A DNA stretch of 21,531 bases. Source: a virus. Where the stretch lies: the IMG/VR virus record IMGVR_UViG_3300045118_000097, positions 1 to 21,531 of that record. One strand, written 5' to 3'. Positions 5,408-20,970 of the stretch are shown in pieces (positions within the stretch are counted from its first letter, which is position 1; every line of letters starts with the position of its first letter). Below the pieces are notes generated by a model. That model did not search any database. It saw only the letters and a list, made by a program, of their open reading frames with translations, and was not told the origin of the DNA. The translations under genes and the position numbers were made by a program.

Positions 5408-5416
5408 CTCACACCC

Positions 5417-5425: not shown

Positions 5426-5444
5426 GTCAAAATTTTTGAAAGAC

Positions 5445-5474: not shown

Positions 5475-5488
5475 TAGTGTGATGAAAT

Positions 5489-5899
5489 ATGGAAATAATT
5501 TTACCAGAAAAAAAAGAAAACGTAAGAAATTGGAAGAGAGTTAAGCCATACACTTACACAAAAAAGAAAGCTGACTTTACTTTGAAGTCTGGGAAATTCG
5601 CTATTGCCAAACAACAAGGTATGACTGATGCAAACGCAGCTAGGTTTGCTGGTTTGGGTTCTACTGATAATTCTACAAAAATGAAAGAAACACAGAATTA
5701 TAAATTGTGTATGGAAACTTTTAAAGATGCCTATTTGGGTCAGACTACTGTGGAAAGAATTGTTGGGTTGAGTATAAGAAATATGGAACAAGATAAAGAT
5801 ATTGGTGGGAGTAACGCTGCGATTAAAATTGCAATGGATAAAATTGAACCAGAAGACAAACCACAACAAGCACAAATGATTCAAGTTACATTTGAATAA
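5489..5899 (+). CDS. terS: Terminase small subunit
   Basis: This is a 136-aa protein directly before the large terminase, the usual place of the small, DNA-recognising packaging subunit. Residues 35-60 (SGKFAIAKQQGMTDANAARFAGLG) look like a helix-turn-helix. A long helical part then precedes a short acidic tail with a terminal beta strand (QAQMIQVTFE), as in other small terminases. It would bind phage DNA and recruit the large subunit for head filling. The TAA stop overlaps the next ATG (TAATG), suggesting coupled translation. The ATG at 5489 has no Shine-Dalgarno and lies only about 8 bases after the predicted transcription start. The call rests on position, size and the HTH-like part. Confidence 0.75.
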   Translation: MEIILPEKKENVRNWKRVKPYTYTKKKADFTLKSGKFAIAKQQGMTDANAARFAGLGSTDNSTKMKETQNYKLCMETFKDAYLGQTTVERIVGLSIRNMEQDKDIGGSNAAIKIAMDKIEPEDKPQQAQMIQVTFE

Positions 5900-7395
5900 T
5901 GTCAGAAATTATAAATTTAAATTTTGAGCAAATAGGGCAAAAAATCCTAGAAGGGAAAAAATTAAAAGACATAACTCTCAACGGGAAAAAATATGTTTTT
6001 AATCCTGCACAGAAAGATTTCATTTTTGACTGGAAATCAGATTACTGTCTTTCTTATGGTGGTTTTGGCTCAGGAAAATCGCTTGCACTTTATATCAAGA
6101 TGTATTTGTTTTGCATGTGCTTCCCAAAGAACACAGTTTTGTTTGGAAGAAAAACTCTAGCAGATATTACAAAAGCAAATTTAAAAGATTTTTTTGATTT
6201 AATACCCGAAGGTTCATACGAACATAAAATAAAAGATAGTTTGATAAACTTTAGTAATGGTTCGCAAATAATTCTTTTTGGTCTAGATGCGATGCAGGGT
6301 GGTAGTGAGGCTGATATTAAAAAAGCAGAACAGAAAATTAAGTCAATAAACCTGGGTGCGTATTTTATAGACCAACTTGAGGAAATAGAATATTCGGTGT
6401 TTGATGCTCTTAATAGTCGATTAAGAAATATTGTTATGCCATTTGGACAGGGGAATATGACAAGCAATGTAGCGAACTATTGGGCTTATCATTATTTCAT
6501 TAGGGGATTAAATAAGTCGGGCGATAATTGGGTAGAAAGAAAGCCAGTAATGGTCAATGGAAAATTGAGAGAGATAAAAACTGCAGTTTTTAAAAGTTCA
6601 ACAAGAGAAAATGAAAGAAATCTTCAAGAAGATTATATTGGAAGACAACTTGCTGGACATGATGAAAAATGGATTGAAAGGTATTATGAAGGTAATTGGA
6701 CAGCAGATTTATTATCACATAGACAAGTGTTTGGAGGATATTCTACACAATGGATTGCACGACAACCTATCGCAAAAGAAAATGGTTGTGAGATTTACGA
6801 AGAACCTTTTAGAAATAAAATGTATCAGATAGGAATTGACCCATCAGAAGGTGTGGTTGACCCCGCTTCAATAACAGTAGTTTCAGAAGATGGGAAGAAA
6901 GTTGCTAAGTTTAATGGAAAGATTCCGATAGGGGGCTTGACAGATAAAGTTAGACATTTGTATTATAAATATGGAAGACCAAAAATTATTTTAGAAGTTA
7001 ATGACAAAGCAGGTGGGGCATTGCTTGAAAATATAAAAGATTTGAATGTTGCTAGGAGAGAAACATTTGATTATAAAGAAAAAAGAATTGTTGAAAAATT
7101 AGGATTTAAAACGAATCATCAAACGAAAAGAATGTTGATTGATAATTTTCAACAGTTGATGAAAGATGGTTTCCCAAAAATATTTGATAGAAATACGATT
7201 GAAGAATTTTCACATTTTGTATGGTCAGATGAGGCGAAACATCAAGGGGCTGCGGCACAAAAGGATTTTCACGATGATGATGTACTCAGTACTCTTTTAG
7301 CTTTCTGGAACTTTACCCCCAAGAAGATAGAAGTGATACAAGTAGCACAGGCGATGCAAGCAATTAAAAAGAAAAAAATATTCCAATACAAATAA
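5899..7395 (+). CDS. terL: Terminase large subunit
   Basis: This 498-aa ATP-driven packaging motor and nuclease acts at the portal of the empty head. The N-terminal ATPase has Walker A YGGFGSGKS (53-61) and Walker B AYFIDQLEE (154-162, D158 followed by L160-E161). Near 188-201 (TSNVANYWAYHYFI) is the region coupling hydrolysis to motion. The C-terminal RNase H-like nuclease has its three acidic positions: D314 in IGIDPSEG, E366 in ILEVND and the D459-D461 run in HDDDVLS. The length is normal for the family and no domain is missing. It overlaps the small subunit gene by one base and is followed one base later by an HNH gene, which looks inserted between packaging and portal genes. Confidence 0.92.
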   Translation: MSEIINLNFEQIGQKILEGKKLKDITLNGKKYVFNPAQKDFIFDWKSDYCLSYGGFGSGKSLALYIKMYLFCMCFPKNTVLFGRKTLADITKANLKDFFDLIPEGSYEHKIKDSLINFSNGSQIILFGLDAMQGGSEADIKKAEQKIKSINLGAYFIDQLEEIEYSVFDALNSRLRNIVMPFGQGNMTSNVANYWAYHYFIRGLNKSGDNWVERKPVMVNGKLREIKTAVFKSSTRENERNLQEDYIGRQLAGHDEKWIERYYEGNWTADLLSHRQVFGGYSTQWIARQPIAKENGCEIYEEPFRNKMYQIGIDPSEGVVDPASITVVSEDGKKVAKFNGKIPIGGLTDKVRHLYYKYGRPKIILEVNDKAGGALLENIKDLNVARRETFDYKEKRIVEKLGFKTNHQTKRMLIDNFQQLMKDGFPKIFDRNTIEEFSHFVWSDEAKHQGAAAQKDFHDDDVLSTLLAFWNFTPKKIEVIQVAQAMQAIKKKKIFQYK

Positions 7396-7396
7396 A

Positions 7397-7884: not shown

Positions 7885-7887
7885 AAA

Positions 7888-8112: not shown

Positions 8113-8133
8113 GAAAATTTCAATATCGTTAAT

Positions 8134-8331
8134 ATGAAAAAAATACCTCAAATAAATATTTGGTCAGCAGATACACCAGAGAAAAGAAGGGCAATTTTAG
8201 ATGCCCAAGAATCAGCTTTGGAAAATTATCTTTCAAAGAAAAAAACAGAAGATTTTTCCAAGAAGTTAAAAAAAGATATAAAGTCTGGTAAAGCAATACC
8301 AAACTACGGATATAAAAAAAATTACGCATAA
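8134..8331 (+). CDS. Hypothetical small protein, 65 aa
   Basis: This encodes 65 residues: a short N-terminal segment (MKKIPQINIWSADTPEKRRA), a long charged helix (AILDAQESALENYLSKKKTEDFSKKLKKDIKS) and a basic tail ending YGYKKNYA. It is highly lysine-rich. It lies 21 bases after IF-1 and 5 bases before the next small gene, in the same transcript. No family is recognised. Small basic proteins between terminase and portal genes are common in tailed phages and may accompany packaging or head assembly. Confidence 0.6.
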   Translation: MKKIPQINIWSADTPEKRRAILDAQESALENYLSKKKTEDFSKKLKKDIKSGKAIPNYGYKKNYA

Positions 8332-8336
8332 AAAAT

Positions 8337-8438
8337 ATGCCATATAAATCAAAAAAACAAAGAGCGTGGATGCATATTAACAAGCCTAAACTTGCCAAAA
8401 AGTGGGATAAAAAATACGGAGGTAAAATTAAAAAATAA
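8337..8438 (+). CDS. Tiny basic protein, 33 aa, common near phage portals
   Basis: ATG 8337 to TAA 8438 encodes 33 residues. Its opening MPYKSKKQRAWMHINKPKLA is the familiar pattern of very short proteins (MPxKSKAQxRxM...P..A..W) often seen between terminase and head genes in phages and mobile elements. It is extremely basic and ends YGGKIKK. It lies 9 bases before the portal gene. The GGAGG inside its 3' end is about 22 bases from the portal ATG, too far for a standard ribosome binding site. Function is unknown, though the conserved pattern argues that it is real. Confidence 0.7.
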   Translation: MPYKSKKQRAWMHINKPKLAKKWDKKYGGKIKK

Positions 8439-8447
8439 AAAAATAAC

Positions 8448-10256
8448 ATGGCAGATGAAATTCAAGAGACATCTGATATTTTAAGACAGATAAATACTGA
8501 GATAAATGATTTTGAAACTAAAGAAATTCAGGTAGTCCCTGGTTTTTATTTTAATCAAAAAACCACATTAGAGCAGATTTATAGATATTACAATGGAAAA
8601 TACGAAGAGGGAGACATTGATGAAGATGGAGATAAAAAATATTTTTATAATATTGTAAAAAATCCTTGTAAGGTTTTTTCAAAAGCGATAGATTTTGATA
8701 CAAAAAATATCAGATTATTAACAACGGCAGGTGGAAATGAATTAAAAACTTGGTTTATGGAAAGGGATTTAAAATATTGGATGAGAGATAAGCAATTCGG
8801 AAAAGTTTTAAATAGAATATTTTATGAGTTGCCGATTTATGGTTCTGTTGTTTTAAAAGAAGTAAGTGGGTATTTATATTTTGTTGATTTAAGGAATTTT
8901 ATTGTTGAACAATCTGCAGATAATTTATCAGAATCAAATTATTTGATTGAAATTCATAATTATACTCCTGCTGATTATAGAAAGGTAGCTAAGAAAATGG
9001 GTTGGCAGAAAACTGATGAGGTTATTGAAGAGTTTCGAAAGATGAAGGGAGTAAATCATATCAGGGTTTATGAAAGATATGGTGAGGTGGAGAAGACAGA
9101 TTCTAGGGGGAAGAAAACTTATCCTTATATGAGAACATTTATTGCTGATGTGGGAGTTGATGTTCAAGATGCACAGACTCAAAAAATGATTTATCATAAA
9201 GGAGTTTTATTGAGAGAAGATGAATGGGAAGGAAATCCATACTGGGAATATCATTTAGAAAAAATAATGGGTAGATGGTTGGGGGTAGGAGTCGTGGAGC
9301 AATTATTTGATAATCAAATCAGAGAAAATGAGGTTGCTAATTTAGAAAGCAAGGCATCTTATTGGAGGGCATTAGTTTTATTTCAAAATCCTGACCCTAC
9401 AATGGCTGGTAAGAATTTACAGACCGAAAATAAAAATGGAGATGTGCTTGATGCTTCAAATGGTTTAACGACTCAAGTGGATATTTCAGATAGAAACCTT
9501 GCATATTTTAACGACCAGACAAACAAATGGTTAAAGAACAGAGATGAATTAACATTTTCTTATGATGTAGTTCAGGGTGAAAGGTTGCCAGCGGGAACAC
9601 CACTTGGTTCTGCTCAAATAGCAATAACACAAACGCTTTCTTATTTTGAACAGATACAAGAAAATATTGCACTTGACGTAAAAGAAATGTTATACTCAGT
9701 TATTATTCCTCAATTTCAGAAAGAGATTAATGGTGAACATATTTTAAGATTGGTCGGAAAAGACCTTGACACATATATTTCAATGATAAAGGGCGATATG
9801 GTTAAAGAAGAAATTGTTAAACAATTTTCAAAAGGCAAATTATTAAGCAGTTATGATGCGGAAGTAATTGGGATAACTATTGAAAATGCTTTGAAACAAA
9901 AAGGAGAATTACTAAAAGAGTTCCCGAAAGATTTTTATAAAGATGTTAAGCCAGAAATTGATATTGATATAACTGGAGAAAGTGTTGATACAAGGGTAAG
10001 GAATGCTACAAAGTTTGCAATTCTCCAAGCAATCCAGTCAGACCCAATGATGTTGCAAGACCCAGTTAAGAAAAGGATATTATTTAGTATTGCAGAAGAT
10101 GGTGGGATAAATCTTAATGATTTTATTGGTCAAGAACAGAAATCTATTGAGGCACAAATGACAGGAGCAATGGGTCAGAAAATGGGAGGAGGTGGAGTTT
10201 CAGCACCTGTTCTTCCTCAAATGAGTATGGCAGGAAATAATATGAAAACAATATGA
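8448..10256 (+). CDS. Portal protein
   Basis: This 602-aa protein has the size, position and make-up of a phage portal, the dodecameric ring at the head vertex through which DNA enters and to which the terminase docks. The N-terminal half carries a clip/wing-like mix of strands (GKYEEGDIDEDGDKKYFYNIVKNPCKVFSKAIDF near 50-83, LPIYGSVVLKEVSGYLYFVDLRNFIVE near 128-154). The C-terminal part has the long helices of the stem and crown and ends in a Gly/Met-rich tail (GQKMGGGGVSAPVLPQMSMAGNN). It follows the terminase block and precedes scaffold and capsid genes. Its TGA overlaps the next ATG (ATGA). No Shine-Dalgarno precedes the start. Confidence 0.82.
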   Translation: MADEIQETSDILRQINTEINDFETKEIQVVPGFYFNQKTTLEQIYRYYNGKYEEGDIDEDGDKKYFYNIVKNPCKVFSKAIDFDTKNIRLLTTAGGNELKTWFMERDLKYWMRDKQFGKVLNRIFYELPIYGSVVLKEVSGYLYFVDLRNFIVEQSADNLSESNYLIEIHNYTPADYRKVAKKMGWQKTDEVIEEFRKMKGVNHIRVYERYGEVEKTDSRGKKTYPYMRTFIADVGVDVQDAQTQKMIYHKGVLLREDEWEGNPYWEYHLEKIMGRWLGVGVVEQLFDNQIRENEVANLESKASYWRALVLFQNPDPTMAGKNLQTENKNGDVLDASNGLTTQVDISDRNLAYFNDQTNKWLKNRDELTFSYDVVQGERLPAGTPLGSAQIAITQTLSYFEQIQENIALDVKEMLYSVIIPQFQKEINGEHILRLVGKDLDTYISMIKGDMVKEEIVKQFSKGKLLSSYDAEVIGITIENALKQKGELLKEFPKDFYKDVKPEIDIDITGESVDTRVRNATKFAILQAIQSDPMMLQDPVKKRILFSIAEDGGINLNDFIGQEQKSIEAQMTGAMGQKMGGGGVSAPVLPQMSMAGNNMKTI

Positions 10257-10551: not shown

Positions 10552-11196
10552 ATGGAAAAAGAAATCCAAGAAGAGTTGCAAGAACTCCAAAATCTTGAAA
10601 CTGCTGGTACATTAGATGATGCACAGACAGCTCGCTTAAAGATTCTAAACTCTTTAAGTGAGGCAGAGAAAACTGCTCAACAAAAATCAAAAGATTTAGA
10701 ATCTGCTTTAGCCCAAAAAGAGCATTTCAGAACAAAATCTGAAAAAGAAGAAGCAGATAAAAAGAAAGCTCTTGAAGAATTAGAAAACTTCAAAAAGGGC
10801 AATTCTCCAGCAGGAAATAAATCTTTAGAAGTCTCAGACTTCATTGATATTTCTGCTTCTTTGGAGGGACTAGACCAGAGAGAAAAAGAGTATTTGGCTA
10901 AACAGTACAAACTCACTGGTCAGCCGTTAAGTGAGATTAGGAAATCAGAAGATTTCGGTTTCTGGCAATCCGCTTATCAGGCAAAAGTAGAAAAAGATAA
11001 AACATTAAATCCCTCTACCAGACCAAGTGAAACGACCAAGGAAAAATCTTTTACTGAAAAATTAGAGGAGAATGACCCAATAGATATTAGGGAATCAATT
11101 CGCTTATTAGATGAAAAAGAAAAACTTTTGGCTGAAAAAGGCATGTGGGTAAATCCACGCCAAAATAGACATACAAAAGTTGACCTTGGGAAATAA
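10552..11196 (+). CDS. Capsid scaffolding-like protein
   Basis: This encodes 214 aa directly upstream of the major capsid gene, the standard place of the internal scaffold that guides prohead assembly and then leaves. Residues 1-85 are almost entirely charged helix with coiled-coil character (EEADKKKALEELENFKK). A more ordered middle follows (LEVSDFIDISASLEGLDQREKEYLAKQYKLTG, about 91-122), then a linker rich in T, S and P, and a basic C-terminus (PRQNRHTKVDLGK) that could contact the capsid protein. The composition (K/E-rich, no cysteine) is typical of scaffolds, which are poorly conserved. The call rests on position and composition; a minor head protein is the alternative. Confidence 0.65.
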   Translation: MEKEIQEELQELQNLETAGTLDDAQTARLKILNSLSEAEKTAQQKSKDLESALAQKEHFRTKSEKEEADKKKALEELENFKKGNSPAGNKSLEVSDFIDISASLEGLDQREKEYLAKQYKLTGQPLSEIRKSEDFGFWQSAYQAKVEKDKTLNPSTRPSETTKEKSFTEKLEENDPIDIRESIRLLDEKEKLLAEKGMWVNPRQNRHTKVDLGK

Positions 11197-11224
11197 CAAG
11201 GTTTGAGTGAGGAAAGAAAACAAT

Positions 11225-11437
11225 ATGGGACGAGTAGTAAGTAATGATGTTTCTGCTATCCAACCAATTATATTTGACCCAATGGTTCAAGTACCATTGT
11301 ACAAATCATTAGTTGCGTTGGAAGTAGCAGCAGTTAAACCAATCCCAGCTGGCGCAACTGTGAACATCAGGAGATATGGAGATATGTCTGCACAGACATA
11401 TACACCTGGAACTCCATTATCTGCCACAAACCAGGAT
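11225..11437 (+). CDS. Major capsid protein, exon 1
   Basis: This exon encodes the first 71 residues of the major capsid protein and ends with a complete codon (GAT, D71) at the group I intron 5' splice site. I chose ATG 11225 because GAGGAAAG lies about 10 bases upstream; a GTG at 11207 in frame is less likely. The protein reads MGRVVSNDVSAIQPIIFDPM, then the N-arm and first strands (KPIPAGATVNIRRYGDMSAQTYTPGTPLSATNQD). Joined to exon 2 at 12169 the frame continues with WAYDTIVITTYKHATFYVDE, restoring the usual strand-and-helix order of an HK97-fold capsid protein, 307 aa in all. Without splicing the frame ends at 11623, giving a truncated 133-aa product. Confidence 0.82.
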
Positions 11438-12168
11438 AAGATTAGCCCAGTCCTGGATAAATTGTTACTGAACATCGTGAAACTCTTGACAGTATCATTC
11501 GTATTTAATACAATGATACTATATGAACAAAAATATCAAGACAACACGAGGCAAGCTAAGCCTAACTACTCTATCCTACGCAGCGGGTTTTATAGATGCA
11601 GATGGATGTATTGCTATAACTAAACAAAAAAATAGATATAGCGAAAAATTACTTCCATCTTATTATCTTAGAATTACTGTTATGGGAGTGGATAAACCTA
11701 TAATAGATTGGTTCAAAGATAAGTTTAATGGTTCAGTAAATTGCAAAATGTCCAGACACGGTGAGAGTTGTTATAAAGACCATCATCGTATTCAATGGAG
11801 ATGGGAAGCGTCTGGAAAAATAGCAATGAATACCATTAAACAAGTAATTCCATATTTAATGGTTAAAAAAGACCAAGCAATTATAGGAATAAAATTTCAA
11901 GAGGAAAAAGAAAAAGAATGGAAAAAATATAGAGGTAAAAATGTTCCGATTGAAATTTCAAAAAATAGAGAGTATCTTTATAAACAAATGCGTGAATTAA
12001 AAACTAAGGGAGAGACCTTAGAGGCTTATCGCAGCCGAAGAGACTAAGCGTAACAACACCAAATGGTGATGCTATAGTCCGACCACCAACTATAAATAAA
12101 ATTGGTGAGGCAAACAGAAATGATTTGCCACTCTTAAAAAGAGATTAACAAATGTCATATAAAAACAG
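11438..12168 (+). ncRNA. Group I self-splicing intron in capsid gene
   Basis: A full group I core can be drawn. P1: exon CCAGGAT (11431-11437) pairs with guide GTCCTGG (11450-11456), with the required U-G at the splice site. P10: guide GCCCA (11445-11449) pairs with exon 2 TGGGC (12169-12173). P3: TTGTTAC (11462-11468) with GTAACAA (12050-12056). P4: TCGTG (11475-11479) with CACGA (11545-11549); J4/5 is AAAC and J5/4 CAA. P5: TCTTGA/TCAAGA (11484-11489, 11536-11541), capped by an AGTATCAT/ATGATACT hairpin. P6: GGC (11550-11552) with GCC (12034-12036). P6a: TAAGCCT (11557-11563) with AGGCTTA (12022-12028). P7: GACTA (12042-12046) with TAGTC (12075-12079). P8: CACC/GGTG (12057-12068). P9: CACCAA/TTGGTG (12084-12107). 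The terminal G is 12168. The 731-base intron leaves both exons in phase 0. The endonuclease gene fills the P6 loop and overlaps core strands on both sides. Confidence 0.92.
11523..12047 (+). CDS. LAGLIDADG homing endonuclease inside the intron
   Basis: This encodes 174 aa in a frame different from the capsid exons. The motif YAAGFIDADG (19-28) is a clear LAGLIDADG helix ending in the catalytic acidic residue. Only one motif is visible, so the enzyme should act as a homodimer. The rest has alternating strands and basic helices (IDWFKDKFNGSVNCKM, HHRIQWRWEASGKIAMNTIKQVIPYL) as in the small family members. It would cut intron-free alleles of the capsid gene and so spread the intron; some such proteins also help splicing. 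The coding sequence contains the 3' strands of P4 and P5 and both strands of P6 and P6a, and its stop codon lies within the P7/J7/3 region, so the RNA core constrains its ends. Confidence 0.92.
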   Translation: MNKNIKTTRGKLSLTTLSYAAGFIDADGCIAITKQKNRYSEKLLPSYYLRITVMGVDKPIIDWFKDKFNGSVNCKMSRHGESCYKDHHRIQWRWEASGKIAMNTIKQVIPYLMVKKDQAIIGIKFQEEKEKEWKKYRGKNVPIEISKNREYLYKQMRELKTKGETLEAYRSRRD

Positions 12169-12180
12169 TGGGCATATGAC
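12154..12180 (+). repeat. Hairpin bringing the 3' splice site into its loop
   Basis: GTCATAT (12154-12160, intron) and ATATGAC (12174-12180, exon 2) form a perfect 7-bp stem. The 13-base loop holds the terminal G 12168, the splice junction and the exon bases used in P10. It could present the 3' splice site, or compete with it. Confidence 0.5.
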
Positions 12181-12879
12181 ACAATAGTCATAACGACCTA
12201 TAAGCACGCTACATTTTACGTGGACGAAGCTCGCCAAGTCACCGTAGATATAGACCAAGCCAGAGAATTGGCATCTAATACTGCATATCAATTAAGAGAT
12301 AAAATTGATACACATGTATTTGCTAATATTACTGGTACAGATGGTTTCACAACTTTCGGTGCTGATGCTGGTCTAGTTGGTGGAACAGCTCACAGGTCAG
12401 TGTCTGCAACCACGGCTAACATTATCAACCTTTTTGCCAATGCCAAGAGATTGTTATTGACAAATAATGTTGAACAAATGGGAGACTGGTGTGCAGTTAT
12501 CGGTCCGAAATATGGTGCTATCTTGGATATTAAAGCTGCATCAAGTGGCTTTAATACAGCAGATGCAACTTTAAAGAATGGTTATTCAGGAGATTTCATG
12601 GGCTTCCAAGTCTATGTTTCCAATAACCTTCCAACAGGTGTTTGCTCAACAATAGCTCCAACAGTATCTGGTGGAGTATCATCAGGAACTTGCAAGTCAA
12701 TATACTTTGGTAGGAAGAACATGATTAATTTGTATTTACAACCTCCTCGCACAATCGTAAGACCATGCGAAGATAAGATTGGTACAAACTATATCACCTA
12801 TGCAGTATATGGAAGCGGGGTCACGACAAAAAACAGGTCTCGTGGTCTGAATGTTGGTGCACATGCCGCCACCGCATAA
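12169..12879 (+). CDS. Major capsid protein, exon 2
   Basis: This exon supplies residues 72-307 of the major capsid protein. It opens with TGG GCA (WAYDTIVITTYKHATFYVDEARQ), followed by the helix VDIDQARELASNTAYQLRDKIDTHVFANI and the A-domain part with GGVSSGTCKSIYFGRKNMINLYLQPP near the end. The order of a long spine-like helix and then a beta-rich domain fits the HK97 fold. The 5' boundary is set by P10 pairing and the intron's terminal G; the open frame continues upstream into the intron, and the first in-frame GTG at 12220 is not a start. It is followed by a spacer with two interlocked inverted repeats and an HNH gene. Confidence 0.82.
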   Translation, partial: WAYDTIVITTYKHATFYVDEARQVTVDIDQARELASNTAYQLRDKIDTHVFANITGTDGFTTFGADAGLVGGTAHRSVSATTANIINLFANAKRLLLTNNVEQMGDWCAVIGPKYGAILDIKAASSGFNTADATLKNGYSGDFMGFQVYVSNNLPTGVCSTIAPTVSGGVSSGTCKSIYFGRKNMINLYLQPPRTIVRPCEDKIGTNYITYAVYGSGVTTKNRSRGLNVGAHAATA

Positions 12880-12950: not shown

Positions 12951-13355
12951 ATGACTAAAGAAGAAAAAAAAGAACGTAATAAGAAATGGAGATTAAAACA
13001 TCTAGAAGAAAAAAGGGAATATGATAGAAAATATTATTATGAACATAGAGACGAAATACTTACTTATGGAAGAGAATGGAATAAAAACAATAAAGAACAT
13101 GTTCATAGATATAATAAAGAATATTTTAATAAGCACTATCAAAAAATTAAAAAGCTGAAAGAGAAATTAGGTAATCATTGTTTATTTTGTGGATTCTCAA
13201 AAGAACCAAAAATATTACACTTTCATCATTTGAGAGATAAAAAATTTTCAATTAATAGGATGATAAAACTTCCAATAGAAGAAATTAAAAAAGAGGTCGA
13301 TAAATGTGTATTATTATGTCCAAATTGTCATGCAATAGAACATCTTAAAAAATAA
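12951..13355 (+). CDS. Free-standing HNH endonuclease
   Basis: This encodes 134 aa. The N-terminal 65 residues are a strongly charged, tyrosine-rich helix (EEKREYDRKYYYEHRDEI), as in many phage HNH proteins. The HNH domain follows: zinc pair C77-x2-C80, the catalytic HFHH (90-93), then a second pair CPNC (123-126) with H127 and H131. All expected residues are present. It lies between the capsid gene and the next small head gene and is probably a mobile, homing-type gene. No Shine-Dalgarno is present; its ATG abuts the interlocked inverted repeats. Confidence 0.85.
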   Translation: MTKEEKKERNKKWRLKHLEEKREYDRKYYYEHRDEILTYGREWNKNNKEHVHRYNKEYFNKHYQKIKKLKEKLGNHCLFCGFSKEPKILHFHHLRDKKFSINRMIKLPIEEIKKEVDKCVLLCPNCHAIEHLKK

Positions 13356-13359: not shown

Positions 13360-13602
13360 ATGATTACAAAAACAAAAGAACTTTTTAACAAAATATATAA
13401 ATGGTATTTGAGGAGAAAAGCCAGATTAACTCTTATCAGACGATACGAGTATTTGGTTGAAGTTAATAATTTAATGGAAGAGTTTGATACAGAAAGAATA
13501 CTTAATTTTGATGAGAAGGAGAGAAGAAATGATTTGCTCAAAGTCCAACAGGAAAGCAAAGGAATGAATACGATGATAAGTTTCTTAAAAAATATTAAAT
13601 AA
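13360..13602 (+). CDS. Hypothetical protein after capsid, 80 aa
   Basis: This encodes 80 residues, almost all helical and highly charged (KWYLRRKARLTLIRRYEYLVEVNNLMEEFDTERILNFDEKERRNDLLKVQQESKGM). It begins 4 bases after the HNH stop and ends 8 bases before the first glycosyltransferase, so it belongs to the same transcript. No family is recognised. It may be a minor head or assembly protein, judged by position only. Confidence 0.55.
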   Translation: MITKTKELFNKIYKWYLRRKARLTLIRRYEYLVEVNNLMEEFDTERILNFDEKERRNDLLKVQQESKGMNTMISFLKNIK

Positions 13603-13610: not shown

Positions 13611-14726
13611 GTGAACATAACTTTTTTAATAGAGACCCCCATGGCATTTCAATCGGGTATTTGGTGGCATAGGGTAGAACAACCTATGAGAGCAATGTCT
13701 AAAAGAGGACACGCCATTGCTCAAACAATTATTAGACCTCAATTAACCGAACAAGAATTAAGTTTTCCAGACGTAGTTATTTTTGCAAGAACTTACCCTC
13801 CAGCATATCAACCTCTTGCTTTGATGAAAGAATTTAAGAAAAGAGGTAAGAGAGTTTTATATGATATGGACGATGATTTTTGGCAGGTTGCAAAAGATAA
13901 CCCGTCTGTTTTGGTTTCTAATGCTTTTAAAGACCAATATGAAAGTTTAATAAAAGAAGCTGACGCTATAATTACTCCAAGTAGAATATTGGTTAAAAAG
14001 TTTAAAAGATTAATTGGGAAAAAACCAATTTATATTTGTCCTAATGGAATTGATTATGCTGAATACAAAGAACGACCTCATAAAAGAAATGAATTAGTAA
14101 TTGGTTATATGGGTGCTACTTCTCATTGGAAAGACCTTCAAATAATTATTGAAGCACTTTCAGAACTTTATCAGAAATATGATTTCTCTTTTGATGTTTA
14201 TGGTATGTGTTCTGAACCGATAGAGAGTGCGATGTATATGTATGGAAAATATTTACAAGGTCAATTTGAGCCAGAAAAGAATGAATATTTTAGGGCGGCA
14301 CTTAAATTCTATGATGGTATGAAACAACTTCACGGAAGACACACTCCATTTATGCCACCAGAATTACACCCAACAGTTATGGGAAGAGTTGATTTTGACA
14401 TAGGTATTGCCCCATTAGAAGATACAGAATTTAACAGGGGGAAATCTTGTATCAAGTTTTATGAGTATGCTTCGGTAGGAACTGTTACTTTGGCTTCCGA
14501 TGTATTACCTTACAAAGATGAAGTCAATTACAGGGCAAAAAATACTAAAAAGGATTGGTACAACAAATTAGAAAAACTTATTGTTGATGAGAAGTTTAGA
14601 AAATCACTTCTTGAAAAACAACAGAATTGGGTTAAGGAAAATAGGAGTTTAGAAGAAATAGGAGTTATCTGGGAGAAGGCTTGTCAGAAAGAGGGCGGTC
14701 TCAAAGTATTAAATCAACAGAAATGA
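13611..14726 (+). CDS. GT-B glycosyltransferase (GT4-like)
   Basis: This encodes 371 aa and starts at GTG 13611; this start keeps the first strand of the Rossmann fold (NITFLIETP). The N-terminal domain holds an acidic stretch (LYDMDDDFW, 83-91) and PNGIDYAEY (144-152), the hinge motif of GT4-type enzymes. The C-terminal domain has VIGYMGATSHWKDL (163-176) and the donor-binding FDIGIAPLEDTEFNRGKSCIKFYEYASVG (262-290) with the usual glutamate (E285). It should transfer a sugar from a nucleotide donor in the cytoplasm; donor and acceptor are unknown. It opens the sugar cassette and overlaps the next gene by ATGA. Confidence 0.85.
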   Translation: MNITFLIETPMAFQSGIWWHRVEQPMRAMSKRGHAIAQTIIRPQLTEQELSFPDVVIFARTYPPAYQPLALMKEFKKRGKRVLYDMDDDFWQVAKDNPSVLVSNAFKDQYESLIKEADAIITPSRILVKKFKRLIGKKPIYICPNGIDYAEYKERPHKRNELVIGYMGATSHWKDLQIIIEALSELYQKYDFSFDVYGMCSEPIESAMYMYGKYLQGQFEPEKNEYFRAALKFYDGMKQLHGRHTPFMPPELHPTVMGRVDFDIGIAPLEDTEFNRGKSCIKFYEYASVGTVTLASDVLPYKDEVNYRAKNTKKDWYNKLEKLIVDEKFRKSLLEKQQNWVKENRSLEEIGVIWEKACQKEGGLKVLNQQK

Positions 14727-15646
14727 AAATACTAATCTTTAATTTTAATTCGGTATTGTCCGACGTTGCAGAAGAATTAAGAAAACGAGGACACGAAGTC
14801 AAAGAAATGGTTAAGTCTTCTGAACTTAAAGGTTGGCAGAAATATGACCCAATTGTTGTATGGAATGAAACTGCATTAGCAGGCTGGAGAGATTTTGTTA
14901 AATTAGCACAGAAGAAAGGTAAAACAGTAATTCTTGTTCAGCATGGAAGACGAGGAACTTCAAGAATATATCCACCATTTAATGAGGAACTTATATCAGA
15001 TATAGTTTGTGTTTGGGGGGAGAATGATAAGAAAAGGCTAATGTCAGTTGGTGTTCCGAAAGAAAGAATTAAGGTAACAGGTAGTCCAATTTTTAATCAC
15101 TTAAAACCAAGAGTAAAGCATGAAGGGATAAATGTAGTATTTTCTCCAGAGCATTGGGACGGAGAAGTTGAAGAAAATTTAATTGTCGCAGGGAAATTAA
15201 GAAGAATAAGAGATGTGAATATAATTACTAAATGTCTTCAACACGAACATAATCCTTTAATTTACGATAATCCTATTATTTCAAATAGATGTGAAAGAAA
15301 TCATCTTGATATTACTACTGATGTGTTGTCAAGAGCAGATATAGTGGTTGGTATTTCAGAAAGTACATTTGAACTTATGGCAGAAATGTTAGATATACCA
15401 GTTGTAATAGCGGATATTTGGAAAGATAAAGATTGCGGTGGAGATAATAGATATAAAGAATATCATAGAGAATATTCTAATGCTTGTTATAGAGAAAAGA
15501 ATATTTCCAAATTAGGAGATGCAATTAAATATTGTATAAAACATCCAGAATATTTAAGGAAAGAAAGAAAGGAAATATCTTTATTAGATGGTGGAGACGT
15601 TAATAATGCACTTAATAATATTTGTCAAGTTATAGAAAATATATGA
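14723..15646 (+). CDS. CDP-glycerol-transferase-like GT-B protein
   Basis: This encodes 307 aa from ATG 14723, which overlaps the previous stop (ATGA). A first Rossmann half (MKILIFNFNSVLSDVAEELRKRGHEV) leads to LVQHGRRGTSRIYPPF and VWGENDKKRLMSVGVPKERIKVTGSP, the strand-turn pattern of CDP-glycerol glycerophosphotransferase-like and related GT-B proteins. Later SRADIVVGISESTFELMAEMLDIPVVI carries the serine/glutamate donor site. It may attach a sugar or polyol phosphate to a surface polymer, or act as a glycosyltransferase of another kind; the sequence does not tell which. It is translationally coupled on both sides. Confidence 0.65.
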   Translation: MKILIFNFNSVLSDVAEELRKRGHEVKEMVKSSELKGWQKYDPIVVWNETALAGWRDFVKLAQKKGKTVILVQHGRRGTSRIYPPFNEELISDIVCVWGENDKKRLMSVGVPKERIKVTGSPIFNHLKPRVKHEGINVVFSPEHWDGEVEENLIVAGKLRRIRDVNIITKCLQHEHNPLIYDNPIISNRCERNHLDITTDVLSRADIVVGISESTFELMAEMLDIPVVIADIWKDKDCGGDNRYKEYHREYSNACYREKNISKLGDAIKYCIKHPEYLRKERKEISLLDGGDVNNALNNICQVIENI

Positions 15647-16953
15647 AACAAATTATAGAAGACCTTTTTAAATATAATATAAATCTGGTAGGACATAATT
15701 TTTACAAAGCCTTGGAATATATTAGTAAACTTATTCCATTAGATTTAATTACCATTCAATCAGATACTAAATTAGAAACCTGGGATATTCCGGAAGAATG
15801 GATTGTCAAAGATGCTTGGGTTAAATTTAATGGGGAAAAGATTTTAGATTATCAAAAAGAACCATTATGTTTAATGGCATATTCTATTCCTTTTCAAGGA
15901 AAAATAAATAAGGAAGAATTTATTAAGCATCTTTTTACATCAGATACAAGAAAGAATGCTTATGAATATAATTATAATTTTTATAAAAGAGATTGGGCGT
16001 TTTCAATGCCCTGGCATAAAATTAAAGAATCAAGATTAGATAAAGAAAAACAAAAAGTAGAACATGTTGATATTTTACCGGAGGGAGAATATGAGGTTTT
16101 TATAGATACAGAATTTAAAAAAAGTCCATTACATATAGGAGTTCATACTATTAAGGGAAAGACGGACAGGGAAATACTTTTATTTGCGCATTTAGACCAC
16201 CCATACCAAGCAAATGATAATTTAAGTGGAGTTGCTTGTTTGATAGATTTAGCGAAACAATTACAAGATAAATTTGAACACACAATAAAAATTATTTTTT
16301 GTCCAGAAACAATAGGAAGTATTACTTATGCTTTAACACAAGACATTTCAAAGGTTGATTTTGTAATTGCGGTTGATGCGATAGGAAATGACAATACGCT
16401 TTTATTTCAGAAAGCATTTGATAAAATAGCAAAAATAAATACGATTGCTCATTTGGCTCTTCACGAACTTGGGATTAGTTATAGAAAAGCAGACTTCAGA
16501 TTAGAAATAGGGTCAGATGAATATGTATTTAATGACCCAAAGATAGGAATACCAGGAATACTTTTAACTCGTTGTCCTTATGATGAATATCATACATCAG
16601 ATGATAAGCCAGAAATCATAGTTGAAAATAAATTAAAAGAAGTTCAGAAGTTAATTTTAAAAATAATAGAGATTTACGAAAAAGATTTTATACCAGCAAG
16701 AAACAAAAAAGCACCTTTAATGAGAAGTAAATATGGATTGCAAACCATACATAAAATGGTTAATTTAGATATGGATTATCTTTGGTACTGTATAGATGGA
16801 AAAACTCCTTTATCAGAAATTGTTTCGGGATTAGGAATAACTTATGATTATTGCTATAAATTTATTAGTAAATTAATTGAAAATGGCATCTGTTTGCGCT
16901 CTGATTTGCGCCAAAGGAAACAGCGAAAGACTTCCAAACAAAAACAAGCTTGA
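15643..16953 (+). CDS. M28-like DUF4910 peptidase with winged helix
   Basis: This encodes 436 aa from ATG 15643 (ATGA overlap). The middle is the DUF4910/DUF2172 version of an M28-type zinc aminopeptidase: LFAHLDHPYQANDNLSG (180-196, H183/D185 and D192), FCPETIG (219-225, E222), VDAIGND (244-250, D245) and DEYHTSDD (314-321, H317) supply the metal ligands. A winged-helix tail follows (MDYLWYCIDGKTPLSEIVSGLGITYDYCYKFISKLIENG, 377-415). Proteins of this kind often sit in O-antigen and nonulosonate clusters, where their substrate is unclear; a deacylase or amidase role on an amino sugar is possible. The last 20 or so residues are basic and encoded in DNA that also codes for the next enzyme's CTP-binding loop. 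Confidence 0.78.
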   Translation: MKQIIEDLFKYNINLVGHNFYKALEYISKLIPLDLITIQSDTKLETWDIPEEWIVKDAWVKFNGEKILDYQKEPLCLMAYSIPFQGKINKEEFIKHLFTSDTRKNAYEYNYNFYKRDWAFSMPWHKIKESRLDKEKQKVEHVDILPEGEYEVFIDTEFKKSPLHIGVHTIKGKTDREILLFAHLDHPYQANDNLSGVACLIDLAKQLQDKFEHTIKIIFCPETIGSITYALTQDISKVDFVIAVDAIGNDNTLLFQKAFDKIAKINTIAHLALHELGISYRKADFRLEIGSDEYVFNDPKIGIPGILLTRCPYDEYHTSDDKPEIIVENKLKEVQKLILKIIEIYEKDFIPARNKKAPLMRSKYGLQTIHKMVNLDMDYLWYCIDGKTPLSEIVSGLGITYDYCYKFISKLIENGICLRSDLRQRKQRKTSKQKQA

Positions 16954-17422
16954 TTTTAATGGAAAGCCAATGTTCCTTTGGAATGTAGAAAAGTGTTTGA
17001 AGATTTTTTCAAGAACATTTGTTTCAAGCGATGATGATTGGATATTGGAAGAGGCAGAAAACGTTGGAGCAATACCAATTAAAAGACCGATAGAATTGTG
17101 TGGCGATACTCCTAATATACCAGTATATAAGCACGCTTTACAATTTATGAATGGAGTTGATGGGATTGTAGCAGTTCAAGCCAATAGTCCAACGATAGAT
17201 TCGAGGTTGATAATTAAAGCAAAACAACTTTTAGAAATGGGATTTTTAGAAATAATGACGCAACATGAAAATGGAAAGATTTATGGTTCTGTTTGGGCTT
17301 TAGAAAGAAATAGGTTATTAAGTTATGTAAACCCATATAATCCAAAACCTGAATATTTAATTAGAGATAAATCAATAGATGTTCATACACGAGAGGATTT
17401 GAATAAAGCATTAAAAATATGA
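16883..17422 (+). CDS. CMP-nonulosonate cytidylyltransferase (NeuA/PseF-like)
   Basis: This encodes 179 aa from ATG 16883 (a TTG six bases earlier is less likely). CALICAKGNSERLPNKNKLDF (5-25) is the nucleotide-binding loop of acylneuraminate cytidylyltransferases, followed by GKPMFLW, VSSDDDWI, VAVQANSPTID and the closing IDVHTREDLNKALK. It would join CMP from CTP to a sialic-acid-like nine-carbon sugar, giving the donor for transfer. The KGNSERLPNKN form resembles PseF and legionaminic enzymes more than classic NeuA. It is shorter than the usual 220-230 aa but keeps both ends. It overlaps the previous gene by 71 bases in another frame, exactly over its catalytic loop. Confidence 0.85.
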   Translation: MASVCALICAKGNSERLPNKNKLDFNGKPMFLWNVEKCLKIFSRTFVSSDDDWILEEAENVGAIPIKRPIELCGDTPNIPVYKHALQFMNGVDGIVAVQANSPTIDSRLIIKAKQLLEMGFLEIMTQHENGKIYGSVWALERNRLLSYVNPYNPKPEYLIRDKSIDVHTREDLNKALKI

Positions 17423-17532
17423 CGAAAAAACAAAAAAAAATAGAGAAAGAATATTTAGTTAATTTAACTTTGGCGCACAGGGCAGCATTAGAAGATGGGA
17501 GGATGGAAGAAGCTGAAAAATTAGAAAAGTAA
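17419..17532 (+). CDS. Tiny protein, 37 aa, in sugar cassette
   Basis: ATG 17419 overlaps the stop of the cytidylyltransferase (ATGA) and TAA ends at 17532, giving 37 residues. The protein is basic at the start (MTKKQKKIEKEY) and then one amphipathic helix with acidic and alanine residues. The ATGA overlap suggests translational coupling, which favours a real gene. No family or function is recognised. Confidence 0.5.
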   Translation: MTKKQKKIEKEYLVNLTLAHRAALEDGRMEEAEKLEK

Positions 17533-17563
17533 TTTGAAGAAGAATTTAAAGAATATTTTAAAA

Positions 17564-18229
17564 ATGTCAATAGATACAACAATCATCATTCCAACGCATA
17601 ATAGACAAGATTTAGTAGGAAGGGCGATTAGAAGTGTATTAAAGCAGTCTTATTCTAAAGACCGTTATGAGGTTATTGTCGTTGATGACAATTCTAAAGA
17701 TAATACAAAAGAAGTTTTAAAAGATTTTGGAGATAAAATCATACCAATCTTCCTTAAAAAGAATTTAGGAATAGCTGGTTCCTCTAACGTTGGGATTAAA
17801 AAAGCAATGGGGCAGTTTATATTTCGTCTTGATGATGATGATTATATTTCAGAACATACTATTTTAATAATGACAGAAATAATGAAGGCAAATCCACAGA
17901 TAGGATTTGTTTATTGTGACAAGGTTTTATTCGATAAGAAAGGATTAGAGGTAAGATTAGAAACAGATACTCTTGATAGATTAAAAAGAAATGGTTCTGG
18001 AATAATGTTTCGCAAATCTAATTTAGAAGCTCTAGGACTTTATGACAAAAATTTTAAGAACGCAGAAGATAATGAACTGATGACGAGATACATTAAAAAC
18101 TTTGATGGTTATTATTTAAAACTGCCACTTTATAAGTTCTTTTGGCATGGTAAGAATATGACTTACAAGAAAAAAGCACGAAGAAGGTGGGAGAATAAAG
18201 CGTATGAAAAGCACTTTAACTACAGATAA
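17564..18229 (+). CDS. Family 2 glycosyltransferase (GT-A)
   Basis: This encodes 221 aa from ATG 17564; a TTG 30 bases earlier is rejected because the fold starts at TTIIIPTHNRQDLVGRAIRS (5-24), the standard opening of GT2 enzymes. VIVVDDNSKDNT (37-48) and FRLDDDDY (87-94) carry the UDP- and metal-binding aspartates, and later NAEDNELMTRYIKN resembles the catalytic-base ED motif. It transfers a sugar from a nucleotide donor with inversion. The C-terminus is very basic (YKKKARRRWENK), possibly for membrane binding. Its end overlaps the NeuB-like gene by 26 bases. Confidence 0.88.
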   Translation: MSIDTTIIIPTHNRQDLVGRAIRSVLKQSYSKDRYEVIVVDDNSKDNTKEVLKDFGDKIIPIFLKKNLGIAGSSNVGIKKAMGQFIFRLDDDDYISEHTILIMTEIMKANPQIGFVYCDKVLFDKKGLEVRLETDTLDRLKRNGSGIMFRKSNLEALGLYDKNFKNAEDNELMTRYIKNFDGYYLKLPLYKFFWHGKNMTYKKKARRRWENKAYEKHFNYR

Positions 18230-18911
18230 GGTTCTAAAAATCGCAGAAATTGGTCATAATCACAATTCAGACATGGAATTGGCTAAAAAAATGATACAAG
18301 AAGCCAAGGATTGCGGGGCAGATATAGCAAAGTTTCAACTTTATGATGTCAATAAACTTCCTTTTTCTGATGAAGAAAAAAAAAATGGGATTTATGATGA
18401 TTTAAAATTAGGTCAACTTACTAAAGAGCAACTCAAGATTTTAAAAGATGAATGTGATAGAGTTGGGATAGAATTTTTTGCTTCAGCATTTGATATTGAA
18501 AGAGTGGGGTGGCTGGAAGAAATAGGTGTTAAAAGACATAAAATAGCGTCAAGAATGATTACTGATAAGGATTTCATAAAAGCAGTAGAAGATACAGGTA
18601 AACCAATAATTGTTTCCCTTGGCTGGTGGAATAAACCAGAGTTTCCAGAGATAAAGAATTGTGAATTTCTATATTGTATATCAAAATATCCAACAGAAGA
18701 TAGAGATTTAATCAATTTTCCAGATAAGTTTGATAAATATACGGGATTTTCAGACCATACCATTGGAACGAAATGGGCTAAAAAAGCTATAGATAGGGGG
18801 GCGAAAATAATAGAAAAACATTTTACTTTAGACAAAAAGATGTTTGGTTGTGACCAAGCAGGAAGTGCTGAGCCACAAGAATTAAAAGAAATTTGCAATT
18901 ATAATGGATAA
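18204..18911 (+). CDS. NeuB-like nonulosonate synthase, no SAF domain
   Basis: This encodes 235 aa. It has the TIM-barrel motifs of N-acetylneuraminate/pseudaminate/legionaminate synthases, which condense a six-carbon sugar with phosphoenolpyruvate: KIAEIGHNHNSDMELAKKM (12-30), ADIAKFQLY, KIASRM, YCISKYPT, GFSDHTIG and IIEKHFTLDKKMFGCDQAGSAEPQEL near the end. The usual STGM step reads SLGWW. The protein stops right after the barrel, so the C-terminal antifreeze-like (SAF) domain that closes the active site in typical 340-aa enzymes is missing. It may be inactive, use another substrate, or pair with a separate domain. It overlaps the genes before (26 bases) and after (8 bases). Confidence 0.85.
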   Translation: MKSTLTTDKVLKIAEIGHNHNSDMELAKKMIQEAKDCGADIAKFQLYDVNKLPFSDEEKKNGIYDDLKLGQLTKEQLKILKDECDRVGIEFFASAFDIERVGWLEEIGVKRHKIASRMITDKDFIKAVEDTGKPIIVSLGWWNKPEFPEIKNCEFLYCISKYPTEDRDLINFPDKFDKYTGFSDHTIGTKWAKKAIDRGAKIIEKHFTLDKKMFGCDQAGSAEPQELKEICNYNG

Positions 18912-19476
18912 ATCTGTACAAAAAGAACTTGAAATTATACATTCTGTTTTTGAGAAAAATGGAGTTAGACTGTTTCTACTTTATGGAGCATTGCTTGGAC
19001 TTTATAGAGATAAAGACTTAATACCCTATGATGATGATATAGATTTTGGGATTATAGATGATATTTCTTATGAACAAAGAATAAAATTATGGAGAGGGTT
19101 AAGGGATTTGGGTTTTAAAAATCAAGAGATAGCATTTGATATTTATGGGGAATGGGTCAATGCAAATGGTTATAATGGTAATGAATATACCGGGATAATA
19201 GTTTGTGAGAAGAATTTTAAATATACATTCTTTTTTTATCAATTAGAGGATTGCAATAAGCATGGCAAAGAATATGTATGTACACCAATGCAGGGGTCAA
19301 GAAAATTAATTTCTATTCCGTCATTATATTTTGAAAAAAATGATATAATGAAAATAGGGAGTAAGAAATTTCTAACTCCTTATCCAATCAAAGATTATTT
19401 AGATTTTACTTATGGCAATTGGAAAATTCCTGAAAAGGGGAAACATGCACAGCAATATAGAGAAGCTCATCAATAA
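18904..19476 (+). CDS. LicD-family transferase
   Basis: This encodes 190 aa. FLLYGALLGLYRDKDLIPYDDDIDFGI (24-50) is the signature of the LicD/fukutin nucleotidyltransferase family, with the metal-binding DDDID. LicD enzymes move phosphocholine or similar phospho-groups to surface sugars. A second conserved stretch (SRKLISIPSLYFEKNDIMKIGSKKFLTPYPIKDYLDFTYGNW) completes the family pattern. It lies in the cassette, overlapping both neighbours, which argues for coupled expression and for phospho-decoration of the same glycan. The exact donor is unknown. Confidence 0.85.
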   Translation: MDKSVQKELEIIHSVFEKNGVRLFLLYGALLGLYRDKDLIPYDDDIDFGIIDDISYEQRIKLWRGLRDLGFKNQEIAFDIYGEWVNANGYNGNEYTGIIVCEKNFKYTFFFYQLEDCNKHGKEYVCTPMQGSRKLISIPSLYFEKNDIMKIGSKKFLTPYPIKDYLDFTYGNWKIPEKGKHAQQYREAHQ

Positions 19477-19981
19477 AAAATACTGGAATAAGTTTTATGA
19501 AAATTTTAAGGAAGAAAAACCAAGTTCTTTTGCGAGATTTTGTTTGCCGTATATTAAAGGAGAAATGGTAGAACTTGGTTGTGGTAATTGTAGAGATTTA
19601 TTATTTTTTTCAAACAAAAAAATAAAATGTATTGGAATTGATAATATATTAAATATTGGAGCAGAAGATTATATTAAAAATAATAAAAGTCCGAAATATG
19701 TTTATACAAGATTTTTCTGGCATGCCATTGATAGACGATTACAATTAAAAATATTAAAATGGGTTAAGGGGTGGTTATTTATTGAAGCAAGGACTGACGA
19801 AGATAAACCAAAGGATTTATTCGGAAAGCACAAAAGAAATTTAGTTAATGTCTCGCAACTTATAGAAGATTTATTAAAAGAAGGATTTATTATTAGAAAG
19901 TTTAAGCAAGGTAAAGGTTTATCTCCATATAAAGGAGAAAACCCGCATCTTGTACGAATTATATGTCAAAAAAATGTGTAA
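19445..19981 (+). CDS. SAM-dependent methyltransferase-like protein
   Basis: This encodes 178 aa from ATG 19445, chosen because AAAGGGGA lies 4 bases upstream, one of the few good ribosome binding sites here; a longer frame starts at 19412. MVELGCGNCRDLLFF (41-55) is the glycine-rich SAM-binding loop and KCIGID (61-66) ends in the ribose-binding acidic residue. The rest is short, with ARTDEDKPKDLFGKHKRN and a closing beta pair. It probably O- or N-methylates a sugar of the cassette product. It starts within the LicD gene and ends 19 bases inside the next gene. Confidence 0.75.
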   Translation: MHSNIEKLINKKYWNKFYENFKEEKPSSFARFCLPYIKGEMVELGCGNCRDLLFFSNKKIKCIGIDNILNIGAEDYIKNNKSPKYVYTRFFWHAIDRRLQLKILKWVKGWLFIEARTDEDKPKDLFGKHKRNLVNVSQLIEDLLKEGFIIRKFKQGKGLSPYKGENPHLVRIICQKNV

Positions 19982-20970
19982 TTACTGGAGGGTGTGGATT
20001 TGTAGGTTCGCACATCGTAGAACATTTATTAAAAAACACTGATTGGAATATTGTAGTTCTTGATAAATTGAATTACGCTTCTAGCGGATACGACAGGTTG
20101 AGAGATATAGAATGTTTTGATGAGAGTAGAGTTAAGATTTTTACACCAGATTTACAAGAACCCTTATCTGACGGATTAATACGAGAGATAGGAAATGTTG
20201 ATTATATTATAAATATGGCATCAGAAAGCCACGTGGATAATTCAATTAAAAACCCAGTTAATTTTATATTGAATAATGTGAAATTAACATTGAACATGCT
20301 TGAGTATGCAAGACATGCAAAGCCTAAAAGATTTATACAATTTAGTACAGATGAAGTTTATGGGGCAGCACCAGAGGGAGTAAATTATAAAGAAGGTGAT
20401 AGATTTAATTCTACCAATCCATATTCTGCTTCAAAGGCTTGCCAAGAAAATATTTGTCAGGCTTATGCGAATACTTATGGAATTCCAATAGTGATTACGA
20501 ATGGAATGAATTTTATAGGAGAACGTCAACACCCAGAAAAGTTTGTACCATTGGTAATCAAAAATATTTTAAATAACAAAACTACCCTGATACATTCTAA
20601 CTCAGAAAAAACAAAAGCAGGGTCAAGATTTTACATACATTGTAGGAATGCAGCAGAGGCATTATTGTTTATTTTGAAGAATACCGAAGAGGTACTTGAC
20701 AAACTAAATGCCTCAATGGGAAAATATAATATAGTGGGGGAAAAAGAGACAGATAATTTAGAACTTGTAAAAATGATAGGTAAAATAATGGGGAAAGAAC
20801 CATTATATGAATTAATTGATTTTCATGGAAGTCGCCCTGGGCACGATTTACGTTATGCATTAGATGGTTCAAAATTATTAAACATTGGATTTAAATATCC
20901 AAAAACATTAGAAGAGTCTTTGGAGAAAACAGTCAAATGGTATCTGTCTAATCCAAAGTGGTTGAAATAA
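19963..20970 (+). CDS. Nucleotide-sugar 4,6-dehydratase (RmlB-like SDR)
   Basis: This encodes 335 aa, an extended short-chain dehydrogenase with TGGCGFVG (8-15) for NAD, LDKLNYAS (33-40), MASESHVDNSI (85-95), the catalytic STDEVYG (128-134, T129-D130-E131) and Y154-x3-K158 in PYSASKA. These are the marks of dTDP-glucose or similar 4,6-dehydratases, which make 4-keto-6-deoxy sugar nucleotides, the entry to deoxy- and amino-sugars and to pseudaminic/legionaminic precursors. The length is normal. It ends the visible cassette, one base before an HNH gene that is cut by the window edge. The nucleotide and sugar cannot be fixed from sequence alone. Confidence 0.88.
   Translation: MSKKCVITGGCGFVGSHIVEHLLKNTDWNIVVLDKLNYASSGYDRLRDIECFDESRVKIFTPDLQEPLSDGLIREIGNVDYIINMASESHVDNSIKNPVNFILNNVKLTLNMLEYARHAKPKRFIQFSTDEVYGAAPEGVNYKEGDRFNSTNPYSASKACQENICQAYANTYGIPIVITNGMNFIGERQHPEKFVPLVIKNILNNKTTLIHSNSEKTKAGSRFYIHCRNAAEALLFILKNTEEVLDKLNASMGKYNIVGEKETDNLELVKMIGKIMGKEPLYELIDFHGSRPGHDLRYALDGSKLLNIGFKYPKTLEESLEKTVKWYLSNPKWLK

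Follow-up and report, generated by a model that had tools for sequence, protein, structure and literature searches.

The 21,531-base linear IMG/VR virus record IMGVR_UViG_3300045118_000097, referred to here as the window, carries a head module on the + strand followed directly by nine sugar-chemistry genes (positions 13611-20970, g1 to g9) that include the core of a nonulosonate pathway. This cassette occurs throughout an uncultured, podovirus-like and widespread phage lineage, its core has been inherited vertically, and its end is modular, with phosphonate biosynthesis in some relatives. These observations go beyond the original prediction, which was made from the letters of the window alone. 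With little more than even confidence, we think that these enzymes make a glycan in the cytoplasm, containing a nonulosonate and modified by LicD, and that the virion is decorated with it.

Relatives carrying the same cassette were sought, a check that had been proposed together with the original prediction. The IMG/VR collection was scanned with the terminase, which gave 20 relatives, and with a g1 alignment, which gave 99, of which 80 were kept. A g1 scan of 84,980 species genomes added one further locus, carried by a phage contig within a Crystal Geyser metagenome-assembled genome (MAG), and one weak match in Patescibacteria. The cassette was found in 85 loci, or 65 clusters at 90% g1 identity, and 24 of these clusters extend to the SU10-type head-tail adaptor. 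The order capsid gene, g1 and, where reached, adaptor gene is unbroken in all 85 loci having both the capsid gene and g1. Therefore, virion genes lie on both flanks of the cassette, and the earlier view of a sialic-acid-like pathway within a structural operon was borne out. More structural genes, including one of PF24175, follow the adaptor in relatives; the window itself stops at 21531 within an HNH gene, so the genes 3' of the cassette are visible in relatives only. Several relatives from the terminase scan run from the capsid gene through h80, g1, g2, g3 and onward at approximately 45-65% protein identity. Since most loci were retrieved with g1, its universality is partly a matter of selection. 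Loci retrieved with the terminase only also have g1 where their contigs extend over the capsid gene and the stretch immediately behind it (e.g. L002, L003, L004, L010, L012, L014 and L016).

DUF4910, NeuA and NeuB form a nearly all-or-none set. Among the 24 adaptor-reaching clusters, 18 have both DUF4910 and NeuB, two have NeuB only and four have neither (p=0.0014), and the counts for NeuA against NeuB are identical (18/2/4, p=0.0014). Divergence of g1, g2, g3, g4, NeuB and LicD correlates with divergence of the portal (Mantel rho 0.40-0.66), as does that of the virion genes (terminase 0.69, capsid 0.53, adaptor 0.83), but no such correlation was seen for the phosphoenolpyruvate (PEP) mutase PepM (rho -0.12, p=0.8) or the methyltransferase (0.22, p=0.15). 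This difference suggests that the core has long been inherited together with the virion genes, while the end module has been exchanged. The guanine-plus-cytosine (GC) contents of cassette and head genes are also closely matched (r=0.94, mean difference 2.6 points; 30 loci, some of them overlapping records). Contigs were treated as independent after 90% clustering or removal of near-identical ones, and the significance of these tests and those below is thus somewhat overstated.

The end of the cassette takes one of two forms. Of 20 LicD-bearing clusters, 11 have the g8 methyltransferase and nine have PEP mutase, with none having both and none having neither (p=6e-6); PEP mutase accompanies LicD in 9/9 clusters. 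The window is of the methyltransferase type, and no phosphonate gene is present up to its end. In two relatives, L022 and L023, profile matches identify PEP mutase (TIGR02320), a split phosphonopyruvate decarboxylase (TIGR03297), a phosphonate-type Fe-alcohol dehydrogenase (TIGR03405) and a small CTP_transf_like protein, all scoring under the NCBIfam equivalog cut-offs. The motif EDKx5NS, a hallmark of PEP mutase (PMC6697681), is present in both. LicD-like genes are known to go with surface-directed phosphonate pathways, including bacterial aminoethylphosphonate clusters (PMC6697681). The same set of phosphonate genes adjoins LicD in L022, L023, L037, L038, L073, L074, L076, L111 and L113. PEP mutase was also seen in virus contigs that have no capsid-linked g1 (L112, L114, L116-L118, L120 and L122). 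In these modules the decarboxylase is followed by a reductase and not by an aminotransferase, which suggests that hydroxyethylphosphonate, and not aminoethylphosphonate, is made, activated as a CMP ester and transferred by LicD, and the LicD group of these sister phages is probably phage-made 2-hydroxyethylphosphonate.

The gene content of the cassette agrees with what had been predicted. All nine open reading frames (ORFs) were confirmed on the + strand, and seven of the eight junctions overlap, most having been expected to do so by ATGA or more. The g1/g2 and g2/g3 junctions are ATGA (4 bases; starts 14723 and 15643), the others overlap by 71 (g3/g4), 26 (g5/g6), 8 (g6/g7), 65 (g7/g8) and 19 bases (g8/g9), and only g4/g5 has a gap, of 141 bases to the ATG used. 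Families were assigned with Pfam, PHROG and NCBIfam profiles, as listed in Table 1. Matches above the Pfam cut-offs were obtained for CTP_transf_3, NeuB, LicD, GDP_Man_Dehyd/Epimerase, Glycos_transf_2 and DUF4910 with DUF2172. The CMP-nonulosonate synthetase, NeuB-like synthase, 4,6-dehydratase and LicD transferase of the original prediction were thereby recovered. Its several transferase-type enzymes are represented by the family 2 glycosyltransferase (GT2) g5, which is found in only part of the lineage, and by two GT-B enzymes, g1 and g2, whose profile matches are below cut-off only.

The cytidylyltransferase g4 scores 43.7 bits against PF02348 (cut-off 22.6), its nearest PDB relatives are CMP-NeuAc synthetases, and its motifs RLPNKN, SSD and D-x-HT are kept across the phage set. 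Its best NCBIfam match, PseF, is under the equivalog cut-off, and the substrate sugar is therefore left unspecified. The LicD protein g7 reaches 31.8 bits against PF04991 (cut-off 22.6) and conserves YG..LG..RD...DDDID. The dehydratase g9 has the TDE and YxxxK motifs and scores 261.7 bits against TIGR01181, below the RmlB equivalog cut-off of 365.1, so it is described as a 4,6-dehydratase with no substrate assigned.

The NeuB of the window, g6, is clearly a member of its family (162.6 bits against PF03102, cut-off 22.1), but it is a 235-amino-acid, single-domain form that ends after the barrel and has no C-terminal SAF domain, covering positions 4-249 of the 329 in TIGR03569. Its product was not assigned because it falls under the equivalog cut-offs for both N-acetylneuraminate synthase (165.6 against 399.65 bits) and pseudaminic acid synthase (147.4 against 340.25 bits). 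The best PDB relative is 6ncs, a chain of 290 amino acids. The histidines of SDHT and EKHF, the presumed metal binders of this family, are invariant in 17 short forms. A complete short NeuB is present in eighteen other loci and a full-length NeuB at the equivalent position in others, such as the SAF-bearing protein of L022 and the full-length ORFs of L029 and L124. A HAD-type protein of about 100 amino acids with a DxDGT motif was found in 9/11 short-NeuB clusters and 0/9 long-NeuB clusters among those reaching the adaptor (p=3e-4). Examples of this phosphatase-like gene lie at 14803-15108 in L053, where it is 3' of the methyltransferase gene, and at 10366-10671 in L023; the window, which ends before the adaptor, has none. 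A sugar-phosphate route to nonulosonates exists in animals. One reading of the association is that the short NeuB would yield a nonulosonate phosphate, which the HAD protein would then dephosphorylate. In L081 and L087, NeuB (and in L087 also NeuA) is located 5' of the portal gene rather than after the capsid gene, which shows that the pathway can relocate within the genome.

The DUF4910 protein g3 (169 bits against PF16254, cut-off 26.6) retains the zinc ligands His185, Asp191 and His316 in an alignment to 3k9t, and Tyr187 and Pro220 replace M28 peptidase residues; hence, peptidase activity is not expected. The same retention of the zinc site and loss of peptidase residues was described for a solved DUF4910 relative, and a role in the synthesis of modified carbohydrates was proposed, with NeuB, SpsF, an epimerase and a methyltransferase as neighbours (PMC4000134). 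The structural model of g2 matches UDP-GlcNAc 2-epimerase and TarL equally (Z 19.7) and TagF nearly so (19.5), the latter two being teichoic acid polymerases. If g2 were an epimerase, it would be a possible supplier of the NeuB substrate. A NeuC-type epimerase is disfavoured, since the protein has a QHG motif and three catalytic acids appear to be replaced by other residues at their presumed positions in a marginal alignment to the 2-epimerase profile (E=0.004). It is more likely that g2 is a transferase. A B12-binding radical S-adenosylmethionine (SAM) protein, possibly a sugar-modifying enzyme, is encoded between g2 and DUF4910 in L022 (7299-8804), and homologues are present in the cassettes of eight loci.

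The proposed pathway is as follows. NeuB would condense PEP with an aldose, either supplied by the host or modified in part by the phage, and the resulting nonulosonate would be activated by NeuA to CMP-nonulosonate. DUF4910 and the methyltransferase or dehydratase may tailor the sugars, and the soluble GT-B and GT2 enzymes would work in the cytoplasm, assembling a short glycan and transferring it. LicD would then attach a phosphodiester- or phosphonate-linked end group; in this phage, a methyltransferase stands in for the phosphonate module. Among possible acceptors, a virion protein encoded by the neighbouring genes is the most likely, and the cassette is probably expressed late.

Either virion glycosylation or remodelling of the host surface had been offered as the function, and both fit the genes. 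Of the 472 proteins encoded in the cassettes, just one is convincing as a membrane protein; three other flagged proteins, labelled NeuA or decarboxylase, resemble hydropathy or start-site effects. With one membrane protein in 472, there is no flippase, oligosaccharyltransferase or GtrA/GtrC-like part. This absence of membrane and export proteins leans toward the virion, and the case also rests on the slot between capsid and adaptor genes and on descent coupled to the virion genes. The identities of the genes at the level of fold or family and their conservation, position and modularity were observed directly; the chemistry of the product, the order of steps, the timing and the acceptor are read from gene content. 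Several points weigh against decoration of the virion. The lineage has no cultured member or known host, and the window lacks NeuC and any other gene recognisable as a supplier of the NeuB substrate. Also, the soluble enzymes could equally use lipid-linked intermediates exported by the host.

This last point leads to the strongest alternative, which we nevertheless consider unlikely: that host carriers and flippases bring the nonulosonate or phospho(no)-glycan to the lipopolysaccharide, capsule or S-layer, where it would block superinfection or alter recognition. Bacterial clusters with NeuB, SpsF, DUF4910 and a methyltransferase have been proposed to make surface glycans (PMC4000134), phosphonates on cell-surface glycoproteins have been hypothesised to limit phage and grazing (PMC8931226), and g5 matches GtrB-type O-antigen conversion PHROGs. 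However, the 472 proteins include neither a membrane-bound glycosyltransferase nor a flippase or part of an export system, and the head-to-neck position suggests late expression, when exclusion would be less useful. The gtrABC seroconversion operons of temperate phages likewise carry phage-borne glycosyltransferases but need the flippase GtrA and the membrane protein GtrC, neither of which is in these cassettes.

It is improbable that the genes make a soluble metabolite, free nonulosonate or a related compound, or are neutral cargo, with no role at the virion or host surface. DUF4910 has no assigned chemistry and the end module is freely exchanged, as such a role would allow, but an acceptor is implied by the presence of LicD and several dedicated transferases, and the ORFs have been kept throughout the lineage, with identities of about 50%. 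Glycosylation of phage bases against nucleases seems very improbable, even though virus glycosyltransferases hypermodify DNA (Pyle et al. 2024, according to PMC12619734). No gene of a thymidylate-synthase or hydroxymethylase family was found in eight contigs, several of them 40-45 kb. To our knowledge, nonulosonates and LicD end groups do not occur as DNA modifications. Finally, although the window is a linear contig ending within the region, a contig-joining artefact or the recent transfer of one host chromosomal cluster with no phage genes following, the two doubts raised with the original prediction, is hardly credible given identical junctions in many independent contigs from different metagenomes and one MAG contig, virion genes after the cassette in relatives, matched GC content and the distance correlation.

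Decoration of the virion is thus preferred. A more specific version, which is tentative and rather doubtful as a whole, is that phages of the whole lineage make a nonulosonate glycan as a coat for their capsids, with an outer group (a phosphonate in some members, a methylated variant in others) that is swappable and serotype-like. In that version, the enzymes would be largely those of the phage, with a single-domain NeuB acting on a sugar phosphate and relying on the phage HAD phosphatase.

The head genes of the window are included in Table 1. An insert (11438-12168, about 730 bases) separates the two exons of the capsid gene; it contains a LAGLIDADG ORF (11523-12047, LAGLIDADG_1 match) and is apparently an intron. 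The exons join at 'SATNQD' / 'WAYDT', and the capsid gene of relatives is unbroken. No Rfam intron family matched the insert, even at loose thresholds. Three more small endonuclease-like genes occur within the head module and on the edges of the cassette, namely an endonuclease VII gene (7397-7846), an HNH-like gene (12951-13355) and the terminal NUMOD3/HNH gene, which is probably a mobile insert outside the pathway. The relatives L016 and L059 have HNH genes within the cassette, too.

Table 1. Cassette and head genes annotated in the window
Feature	Position	Strand	Evidence
g1, GT4-type glycosyltransferase	13611..14726	+	phrog_7162 E=3e-31; Glyco_transf_4 below cut-off
g2, GT-B fold transferase with QHG motif	14723..15646	+	AlphaFold mean pLDDT 94
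g3, DUF4910 + DUF2172, M28-like	15643..16953	+	PF16254 E=1e-49, PF09940
g4, compact NeuA/PseF-like CMP-nonulosonate synthetase, 179 amino acids	16883..17422	+	PF02348
g5, GT2 glycosyltransferase	17564..18229	+	PF00535 E=1e-30
g6, short NeuB, TIM barrel, 235 amino acids	18204..18911	+	PF03102 E=1e-47
g7, LicD-type phospho-/phosphono-transferase	18904..19476	+	PF04991
g8, class I SAM methyltransferase	19412..19981	+	Model pLDDT 82, methyltransferase matches
g9, RmlB-like NDP-hexose 4,6-dehydratase	19963..20970	+	TIGR01181 E=8e-78; LegB 4e-30; phrog_540
Terminase large subunit	5899..7395	+	Terminase_6N; closest IMG/VR relatives 45-54% identical
Portal protein, SU10-like	8448..10256	+	SU10_portal E=3e-4, below cut-off; closest relatives ~60% identical
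Scaffold-like protein	10552-11196	+	
Major capsid protein gene, two exons	11207..12879	+	Phage_capsid_4
h80, small conserved protein encoded between capsid gene and cassette	13360..13602	+	42 homologues in equivalent position
HNH/NUMOD3 endonuclease, truncated by contig end	20972..21531	+	

Phage glycosyltransferases and virion glycans are already known (PMC12619734), and glycans on capsids and tail tubes of mycobacteriophages were reported by Freeman et al. 2023, according to the accounts in PMC12619734 and PMC10568470. Those phages, like the present lineage, are tailed. We know of no nonulosonate, DUF4910, LicD or phosphonate genes in the mycobacteriophage glycan systems. The chromosomal cluster CA_C2186-2199 of Clostridium acetobutylicum (PMC4000134) resembles the cassette in bringing together NeuB, a nucleotidyltransferase, DUF4910, an epimerase, a methyltransferase and glycosyltransferases, but its NeuB has the SAF domain, it includes acyl carrier and acetyltransferase genes, and it has no virion genes. 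The modules of L022, L023, L037, L038 and L073 resemble phosphonoglycan pathways (PMC6697681) in having PEP mutase, decarboxylase and cytidylyltransferase adjoining LicD; in contrast, they are phage-borne, with an alcohol dehydrogenase in place of the aminotransferase, and the module is absent from the window. Podoviridae sp. ctQWt234 (MW202801, L138), a circular spring-water genome, also has sugar enzymes between the capsid gene and a phage stabilisation gene (Fe/S oxidoreductase, glycosyltransferase, PhyH, methyltransferase and NodB genes at 5336-9999), but no NeuB, NeuA or DUF4910 is annotated. Different sugar enzymes thus occupy the capsid-adjacent slot there, which is a recurrent site for sugar genes.

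Among annotated phages, the best match to g1 is in Streptomyces phage Zuko, just upstream of the terminase and portal genes and beside a UDP-glucose dehydrogenase gene. A DNA-level search of annotated phages matched the dehydratase alone, and a single-sequence NeuB scan of viral contigs gave no matches, although scans with DUF4910, as with the terminase and the g1 alignment, were productive. DUF4910 had no match among 50,697 phage records; three records matched NeuB and five matched PEP mutase, two of the latter being annotated as methylisocitrate lyase. The Crystal Geyser phage contig (L124, JAACVK010000015.1), which was binned with a bacterial MAG, has the full cassette with the long NeuB and is the only hint, a weak one, of a host; no second DUF4910 gene was found in that MAG. 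Every enzyme class is already known, and lone NeuB or PEP mutase genes are present in a few phage records. In the open literature searched, which was far from complete, there was nothing on point about nonulosonate or phosphonate synthesis by phages and no description of a conserved cassette between capsid and adaptor genes that joins a nonulosonate core to an exchangeable end, be it a methyltransferase or a phosphonate module.

Clear, testable predictions follow from a core that is present or absent almost as a unit and from an end that takes one of two forms. If our reading is true, phosphonate synthesis, a proposed cellular defence against phages and grazers (PMC8931226), would be at the disposal of phages, and small single-domain NeuB and NeuA enzymes would become available for study. 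If the virions do carry the glycan, these phages, like some large eukaryotic viruses, would make an elaborate coat of their own, with an end group that varies in the manner of a serotype.

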